From Acidimicrobiia bacterium (GTDB lineage: Bacteria; Actinomycetota; Acidimicrobiia; IMCC26256; JAMXLJ01), in contig DASRES010000069.1 of NCBI GenBank assembly GCA_035651955.1, positions 1 to 64,000 of the forward strand: a DNA stretch of 64,000 bases, given 5' to 3'. Within the stretch, counting starts at the first letter, position 1. Every line of letters begins with the position of its first letter. A program made the translations under genes and the position numbers. The notes beneath the pieces are model-generated. The model saw nothing but the letters and a program-made list of their open reading frames with translations, was not told the DNA's origin and did not search any database. Below are positions 29,111 to 31,683 of the stretch, in pieces.

Positions 29111-29740
29111 TCAGCAGTGTGGAACCGTCGTTGACGTCGTGCTCGTGCCCGCCGTCGTGTCGGTCGTCGGCGGACACGTCGTCGTCGTGGTCGTCGTCGT
29201 GTCGGTCGACGGTGGCGTGGTCGTCGGGGGAGTGAATGTCGTGGTCGTCGTCGACGACGTGCCGTCACCCGGTGACGTGATGACGAGCGGCGTCGGGTCG
29301 GTGATCACGGGAGACCCCGATCCCGCTGCCTGCGGCTGGAGGTTCGGCGTGCTCGCCGAGGTGGTCGACGGTGTCGAACGTGCTCGCGCGGCTGAGTGCG
29401 GCGTCGCCCGCCGGGGGTTCGCGCTCGCCGTGGTCGTGCTCGCCGGCTCGGGGCTCAGCCCCCCGCCTCGGCTACCGCTCGGTGGCGTCGTCGTCCCGTG
29501 CGGTCCGGCGGCGCGCGCGGTGGAGGGGTAGTGCGACGACGTCGACACCCCGAGCGACGTCCCGATCGCGAACACCGCGACGACGACCGCAACGACGACG
29601 GCGGCACCTGCGGCGACCCGCCGGCGCACCTCGCGTTGGCGGGTCCGGTGCTCGATCCGCGCAACGAGACCGTCGGACGGCACGTAGCCGCGCTCGACGT
29701 TCGCGAGCCCGCGGCGCAGGGCGTCCTCGAAGCTACTCAT
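29111..29740 (-). CDS. Single-TM protein, putative anti-sigma factor
   Basis: 209 residues: short cytoplasmic domain (1-42, SFEDALRRGLANVERGYVPS), one TM helix (about 43-64, AAGAAVVVAVVVAVFAIGTS) and a ~140-residue external region that is almost pure Thr/Ser/Pro, ending in VPHC. The ATG overlaps the sigma-factor stop by 8 bp, the usual arrangement for a cognate anti-sigma factor. No HxxxCxxC zinc motif was seen, so it is not a ZAS-type protein; the assignment rests on context and topology. Confidence 0.65.
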   Translation of the reverse strand: MSSFEDALRRGLANVERGYVPSDGLVARIEHRTRQREVRRRVAAGAAVVVAVVVAVFAIGTSLGVSTSSHYPSTARAAGPHGTTTPPSGSRGGGLSPEPASTTTASANPRRATPHSAARARSTPSTTSASTPNLQPQAAGSGSPVITDPTPLVITSPGDGTSSTTTTTFTPPTTTPPSTDTTTTTTTTCPPTTDTTAGTSTTSTTVPHC

Positions 29741-30293
29741 CGCTGCTTCCGACCAGTGCGCGGAGTTGCGTGAGTCCGCGTGCGCAACGCGACTTCACGG
29801 TCCCGGTCGGGACGCCGAGCAGTGTCGCGACCTGCTCCTCGCTCATGTCCTCGTAGAAGCGCAGCACGATCACGGCACGCTGTGCCGCGGGGAGCCGTCG
29901 CAGCGCGGGCTCGAGCAGCTCGCGCTCCTCGACGTTGCGATGCGGCGACGTTCCCTCACGCCAGTCGACGCGCTGGCGTTGCTCCTCGCGACGTTCGAGC
30001 AGCCGTCGTCGCAACCCGCCGCGCACTTGGTTGACGACCGCGGTGCGCAGGTACACCGGCGGGTTCTCGACGTGACCCCTGCGGAACCGCGGCCACACCT
30101 TCGCATACGCCTCGGACACCGCGTCCTCGGCTTGCTCACGATCGCTGCACAACAGGTACGCGAGGCGCGCGAGACGCTCGTGGTACGTCGCGACGAGCGC
30201 GGCGAACGCCGCGTCGGGACCGGCCTGGACGAACGACGTCGTGGTCTCGTGCGCGACAGCCTGCACACCGGAACCCGTGTCCTCGAGTGCCAT
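29733..30293 (-). CDS. ECF RNA polymerase sigma factor (SigE-like family)
   Basis: 186 residues. Region 2 (ATYHERLARLAYLLCSDREQ, EDAVSEAYAKVW) binds the -10 element, region 4 (LPAAQRAVIVLRFYEDMSEE, LLGVPTGTVKSR) is the -35 helix-turn-helix. Close to the actinobacterial SigE/SigM ECF subgroup. Its own upstream region carries GGAAC-N17-CGTC on the minus strand (30343-30368), so it is probably autoregulated; the same promoter faces the divergent SGNH gene. Translationally coupled to the putative anti-sigma factor. Confidence 0.92.
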   Translation of the reverse strand: MALEDTGSGVQAVAHETTTSFVQAGPDAAFAALVATYHERLARLAYLLCSDREQAEDAVSEAYAKVWPRFRRGHVENPPVYLRTAVVNQVRGGLRRRLLERREEQRQRVDWREGTSPHRNVEERELLEPALRRLPAAQRAVIVLRFYEDMSEEQVATLLGVPTGTVKSRCARGLTQLRALVGSSDE

Positions 30294-30342: not shown

Positions 30343-30368
30343 GACGCGTGAACGAGCGTGCTCGTTCC
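30343..30368 (-). promoter_or_regulatory. ECF-type promoter of the sigma operon
   Basis: GGAAC (30368-30364), 17-base spacer, CGTC (30346-30343), read on the minus strand. A start site near 30336 would leave a ~43-base leader before the sigma ATG. Matches the GGAAC/CGTC consensus of SigM/SigX-like ECF factors. Confidence 0.6.
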
Positions 30369-30379
30369 CCGAATCGCGC

Positions 30380-30405
30380 GGAACCTTCCGGGCGACCAGC
30401 GCGTC
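30380..30405 (+). promoter_or_regulatory. ECF-type promoter of the SGNH gene
   Basis: GGAAC (30380-30384), 17-base spacer, CGTC (30402-30405). It is only 11 bp from the divergent copy and has exactly the same spacing. It would give a ~60-base leader to the SGNH ATG. Confidence 0.6.
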
Positions 30406-30471
30406 GAGAGGGGTGCCGGAGCGGACAGGGCAGGGGTCCGCTCCGGCCGCGTCGGGGGCGAGGGGGCAGCG

Positions 30472-31683
30472 ATGAACGGGGCGTCGCGGACGGTGCTCGC
30501 ACTCGCACTCGTCGCGACCGCGTCGCTCGCGACGGCTGCTTTCCCGACGACCGGGGCGGCAGCCTCGCAGTCGTCGGCGCCCGAGGCCGTCTACTACGTC
30601 GCGGTCGGCGACTCCCTCGCGGCCGGGTACGCCGCGCCGCCCGGTACGGGTTACGCCGACGACCTGCTCACCGCGTACCGGGCCGAGCTCCCGAGCTTGC
30701 AGTTGCGCGACTTCGGCTGCGCGAGCGAGACGACCGACACGATGCTCCACGGCGGGATCTGCAGCTACCCCGAGGGCTCCCAGCTCGCGGCCGCCGAGGC
30801 CTTCCTGCGCGCGCACGCCGGGCGCGTCGCGGTCGTGACGATCGACATCGGCGGCAACGACGTCGTCGGGTGCGGGCTCAACGGTCTCGACGTCGCGTGC
30901 CTGCAACGAGGGCTCGCGACCGTCGGCGCGAACCTGCGGACCATCCTGACCGGTCTGCGCGACGCGGCGGGCGCGGGCGTGCCGATCGTCGGCATGAACT
31001 ACTTCGACCCGTTCCTCGCGCGCTGGCTGGAAGGACCCGACGGTCAGGCGTTCGCGCGCGCGACGGTCCCGCTCGACGATCAGGTCAGCACGATCCTCGC
31101 GCAGGCCTACGGTGCATCCGGTGTGCCGGTCGCCGACGTCGAGGCGGCGTTCGAGACGCACGACTTCTCGACCATGGTCACGCGCCCGTACGGCACGATC
31201 CCGCGCAACGTCGCCGACGTCTGCGACTGGCTCGACATGACGTGCAGCAGCACCGGCCCCGACTTCCTCGGCGACGACGCGAACGCGACGGGATACGCGG
31301 TGATCGCGGGTGCGATGCGCGCCGTCACGCCGCCGTTGGGTTCGATCCCCCACGCGATCGACAACGGTGTCGCGACGCCACCAGTGCTGGGCCCGGCCGG
31401 GGGGAACGACGTCGTCGCGCCGCCTCCTGCGACGGACCCGCCGTCGTCCCAAGGGTCGCCCGCGCCGACCCTGCCCTCGACAGGTGGTGCGCAGGCCGTT
31501 CTCGCGCTCGGTGCGATCGCGGCGATCGTGCTCGGTACCACGCTCGCGCGGCGGGCGCGGGTCAGCTCCGGCGCGTCGCGACGAACACCGGGATCGTCCG
31601 GTCCGTCTTCTCCTGGTACTCCGCGTACGGCGGGTATGCGTCGACCGCGCGGCGCCACCACACGTCGCGCTCCTCACCGGTGA
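30472..31683 (+). CDS. Exported SGNH/GDSL-hydrolase-like protein with LPxTG-type tail
   Basis: 403 residues: signal peptide (about 1-31, ending AAFPTTGAAA), SGNH domain (about 40-290) with AVGDSLAAGY (Ser block) and TIDIGGNDV (Asn oxyanion block). The usual C-terminal D-x-H block reads GDDANATGY, so the catalytic His and Asp seem missing. After a Pro/Ser linker comes LPSTGG, a hydrophobic helix and RRAR, a sortase or anchoring signal; the frame then runs on for ~38 basic residues, overlapping the convergent reductase by 122 bp. Start ATG 30472 fits the signal peptide. The divergent ECF promoter predicts stress control. Confidence 0.8.
   Translation: MNGASRTVLALALVATASLATAAFPTTGAAASQSSAPEAVYYVAVGDSLAAGYAAPPGTGYADDLLTAYRAELPSLQLRDFGCASETTDTMLHGGICSYPEGSQLAAAEAFLRAHAGRVAVVTIDIGGNDVVGCGLNGLDVACLQRGLATVGANLRTILTGLRDAAGAGVPIVGMNYFDPFLARWLEGPDGQAFARATVPLDDQVSTILAQAYGASGVPVADVEAAFETHDFSTMVTRPYGTIPRNVADVCDWLDMTCSSTGPDFLGDDANATGYAVIAGAMRAVTPPLGSIPHAIDNGVATPPVLGPAGGNDVVAPPPATDPPSSQGSPAPTLPSTGGAQAVLALGAIAAIVLGTTLARRARVSSGASRRTPGSSGPSSPGTPRTAGMRRPRGATTRRAPHR

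Follow-up and report, generated by a model that had tools for sequence, protein, structure and literature searches.

It is common for a sigma factor gene to stand beside a target gene that is transcribed divergently, and sigma factors can share ECF promoters. AAC and CGT boxes, a co-transcribed anti-sigma factor, and autoregulation are usual for ECF sigma factors (PMC8103513, PMC3817407). Published matrices for Streptomyces sigma-E contain spacers of both 16 and 17 bp (PMC6767563), so the motif cannot by itself identify a single sigma factor. The locus described here lies in a 64-kb window (the whole stretch of DNA that was analysed), and consists of an ECF sigma factor gene of the stress type, an overlapping downstream gene for a membrane protein, and a divergent gene for a secreted SGNH protein. 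Judging from the sequence and its comparison with relatives, we put the probability at slightly above 70% that two divergent ECF-type promoters in the intervening gap let the local sigma factor drive both its own operon and the SGNH gene. The relevant features are as follows.

29111-29740, minus strand: gene for a downstream protein with one transmembrane segment (TM), a candidate anti-sigma factor, overlapping the sigma factor reading frame
29733-30293, minus strand: SigE-family ECF sigma factor gene, 186 aa, with sigma-70 regions 2 and 4 (PF04542, PF08281/PF04545)
30343-30368, minus strand: predicted sigma-operon promoter, GGAAC (30368-30364), N17, CGTC (30346-30343), then TCTAG
30350-30367, no strand assigned: 8-bp inverted repeat, GAACGAGC-GT-GCTCGTTC, spanning the spacer and -35 element of the sigma promoter
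30380-30405, plus strand: predicted SGNH-gene promoter, GGAAC (30380-30384), N17, CGTC (30402-30405)
30415-30447, plus strand: perfect 12-bp inverted repeat with a 9-nt loop, beginning about 4 nt past the predicted SGNH transcription start
30472-31683, plus strand: gene for a secreted SGNH/GDSL hydrolase-like protein, 403 aa (PF13472, 50.5 bits)

The original prediction, which was of twin GGAAC-N17-CGTC sites on opposite strands 11 bp apart, describes the sequence exactly: the two GGAAC boxes (the -35 elements) are separated by the 11 bp from 30369 to 30379, and both sites fall within the 178-bp gap between the sigma ATG at 30293 (minus strand) and the SGNH ATG at 30472 (plus strand). On the sigma side, CGTC ends 50 nt before the ATG; on the SGNH side, the site is on the right strand for a divergent target promoter and its CGTC is 66 nt from the ATG, a fitting distance. 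A scan of the gap for sigma-70-type promoters and terminators found none, and an Rfam search of the gap returned no match. Both sites are very probably ECF promoters.

It is position and cross-species comparison, rather than motif count, that carry the promoter case. GGAAC-N16-18-CGTC occurs 7 times in the window versus 6.3 expected, and the bare motif is present in 193 copies genome-wide at a spacing of 17, compared with 209 at 14 and 191 at 20; since N17 shows no enrichment over these other spacings, nearly all of these copies must be noise, and for the same reason we rejected genome-wide counts as evidence. A reversed-pattern control was set aside because its composition was unmatched. Frequent occurrence at random sites had been named in advance as an argument against the twin promoters, and our genome scan finds just such frequency genome-wide, but the comparison with relatives exempts these two positions from that argument. 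When the 178-bp gap was shuffled with its dinucleotides preserved, about 0.2% of the sequences had a site on any one strand, and 0 of 20,000 had both sites.

The sigma side can be followed into a congener (G001, the single congener compared), where the sigma ortholog is 73% identical and is preceded by GGAAC-CGTCACGACCTGCGACG-CGTCTGTAG, that is GGAAC-N17-CGTCT, with 48 nt between the end of CGTC and the ATG, a distance that matches the one in the window. The spacer letters differ from those of the sigma promoter in the window, and the divergent neighbour is an alpha/beta hydrolase, unlike the SGNH gene of the window; conservation thus picks out the boxes and not the sequence as a whole. No AAC-N17-CGTC promoter was found on the hydrolase side of the congener gap. 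Across the order, which we sampled by 58 mostly draft genomes, AAC-N17-CGTC stands upstream in sense orientation of 17 of 26 homologous sigma genes, as against a mean of 0.55 and a maximum of 4 in 2000 shuffles of the same 26 upstream regions, and 0 to 2 occurrences at neighbouring spacings. The antisense strand of the 26 regions contains one AAC-N17-CGTC, which is the SGNH site of the window, and a divergent twin promoter occurs at 1 of the 26 sigma loci, again that of the window. An AAC-type -35 and a CGT-type -10 are therefore conserved before the sigma gene itself in relatives, and the autoregulation put forward in the original prediction is well supported by the ortholog and the 17 upstream regions as a family pattern, in which AAC-N17-CGTC would serve as a promoter shared by members of the family before their own genes; this part of the interpretation is stronger than could have been known when it was made. 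A scan of the genome contigs with a three-sigma alignment yielded distant relatives only (best 49%), and was not used for footprinting.

Both sites also resemble the promoters of other genera in detail. We built a weight matrix from 14 such promoters, taken from other genera only, and applied it to the window on both strands; out of 127,926 positions the top score is that of the SGNH site (19.6 bits), followed by that of the sigma site (13.7 bits), and a matrix that includes the congener likewise places the SGNH site above the sigma site. Because the training sites had been chosen for AAC and CGTC, we repeated the scan without the seven core columns, and the SGNH and sigma sites were still first and second among the 27 AAC-N17-CGTC sites in the window, for which the odds are 1 in 351.

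The identity of the sigma factor as an ECF protein, assumed from the outset, is borne out by its Pfam domains and by TIGR02983 (SigE family), which it passes narrowly at 143.1 bits with a cut-off of 141.55; having regions 2 and 4 only, in 186 aa, it fits the ECF (group IV) pattern of about 190 aa. The first 8 bp of the partner gene lie within the sigma reading frame, and the gene encodes about 40 cytoplasmic residues, one TM, and an outer part rich in Thr, Ser, and Pro. This protein had no match in Pfam or NCBIfam, and none to a known anti-sigma family. As many as 24 of 25 homologous sigma genes are trailed by an overlapping or closely coupled gene with a TM at about residue 40-57, and because a gene of the same layout follows so consistently, the one-TM protein is a likely partner of the sigma factor, presumably its anti-sigma factor.

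The SGNH protein has a signal peptide and, on inspection of the sequence, LPSTGG-TM-RRAR near its C-terminus; the genome encodes two sortases, and the original description of the target as a surface protein is plausible on these three grounds. A further tail of some 35 to 40 residues follows RRAR, an uncommon feature in a sortase substrate, and this tail overlaps a convergent gene at 31562. The GDS and GGND blocks are present, and DDAN stands where some homologs have DIHP, so that block V shows no clear counterpart of its usual catalytic His. We could not find an SGNH ortholog in the congener, the motif is absent upstream of distant SGNH homologs in other families, and conservation of the motif before orthologs of the target was not seen. 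Because there is no conservation in either the congener or the other-family homologs, the claim that the SGNH gene is a target of the sigma factor is limited to this genome, where it is likely, and does not extend to a conserved rule. The SGNH gene can be kept as a probable target, its site being the best matrix match in the window, but not as a conserved or "first" target, and the description of the arrangement as a switch stays a proposal; the original interpretation as a whole is supported in part.

The gap contains two inverted repeats. The 12-bp repeat, which like the sortase-like C-terminus had been overlooked in the original prediction, has no counterpart of equal size in the window (by shuffling, P about 0.001, or 0.12%), lies within a predicted fold of -41.2 kcal/mol (z -2.2), is unique in the genome, and is absent from the congener. 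It could act in the RNA, as a protective stem-loop at the 5′ end of the message, or in the DNA, as an operator; a classical terminator was ruled out by the lack of a T-run. The 8-bp repeat (P about 0.03 by shuffling) is missing from the promoter of the congener and is probably due to chance.

We propose that an envelope signal would cause the membrane partner to release the sigma factor, and that RNA polymerase carrying the freed sigma factor would start at both divergent promoters, at about 30336 on the minus strand and about 30412 on the plus strand, some 75 bp apart. One promoter would serve the sigma operon (the sigma factor and the one-TM protein, presumably an anti-sigma factor), so that the sigma factor amplifies itself, and from the other the SGNH protein would be made. 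In this account we infer the start sites, the reading of both promoters by the local sigma factor, the anti-sigma role, and the signal. Some competition between the two promoters is likely, because with -35 elements 11 bp apart and starts about 75 bp apart the polymerases would crowd each other. A stronger version, which we regard as quite unlikely, is that the promoters are too close for joint occupancy, so that self-amplification and SGNH expression compete on one 75-bp stretch, and the hairpin, or a regulator bound to the hairpin DNA, tips the balance; if true, competing promoters plus a hairpin would limit an ECF feedback loop at a single site.

The sigma factor has 10 matches in its own genome at E <= 0.001, including a 57% identical paralog (L061, G000 C24) with TTTGGAAC-N17-CATCTGG upstream, which keeps the layout except for a single change in the -10 box. 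A search for further regulon members with tighter patterns returned mostly intragenic sites (as judged with a simple codon-usage gene caller); the best intergenic candidate is a GGAACG-N14-ACGCGTCTC-like site at L084 1501-1526 (G000 C18:25131), a near-match to the sigma factor's own promoter, and the Ser/Thr kinase gene downstream of it is a candidate further target.

These relatives bear on whether the promoters, if real, are read mainly by the local sigma factor, or whether one or both answer instead to another SigE-like sigma factor through cross-talk or a sigma cascade. The number of matches in the genome, the similar GGAAC-N17-CATCTG before the paralog, and the order-wide use of the motif by sigma genes all speak for such a reader; adjacency and the conserved promoter of the ortholog favour the local sigma factor, and ECF subgroups are mostly orthogonal (PMC3817407), so that we consider control by another sigma factor unlikely. 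Doubt could also attach to the SGNH side alone, where the match might be coincidental and the gene expressed from another promoter: the motif is common genome-wide and this side lacks conservation, but the site is the best match of all 64 kb to a matrix that did not include it, is on the correct strand at a suitable distance from the ATG, and would arise in the gap by chance about 0.2% of the time, all of which make coincidence distinctly improbable. That neither site is a promoter, and both are chance matches in G+C-rich DNA, would accord with the 193 genome copies and the lack of an excess over other spacings; it is opposed by the conservation and matrix tests, and is very improbable indeed.

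AAC-N17-CGTC offers a testable promoter signature for SigE-family sigma factors across the order, and the locus names a concrete likely target, an SGNH-type and possibly sortase-anchored protein. The locus also illustrates that a motif without meaning as a bare count can be validated by its neighbourhood together with comparison across genera.

Compared with known systems, the locus shares with canonical autoregulated operons of ECF sigma factors and membrane anti-sigma factors i) a two-domain sigma factor; ii) an AAC -35 and a CGT -10; iii) an overlapping downstream one-TM membrane protein; and iv) a promoter before the sigma factor's own gene. It differs in that the cytoplasmic part of the membrane protein is only some 40 residues long, in that this protein is without a match to any anti-sigma family, and in that autoregulation is here predicted. 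With the SigE family (TIGR02983) and the sigma-E regulon of Streptomyces coelicolor it shares the NCBIfam subfamily, the 16-17 bp spacer of the published matrices, and an envelope-type target; it differs from S. coelicolor sigma-E in that no two-component neighbours were seen beside the sigma gene of the window, and in that autoregulation is here supported by comparison. Like other sigma genes with a divergent target, the two genes are head to head, each with what would be the sigma factor's promoter, but the present pair stands out by -35 elements separated by no more than 11 bp and by the nature of the predicted target, an SGNH-type surface protein that few relatives have. The circuit is of a textbook type and not new, but it is convincingly placed here.
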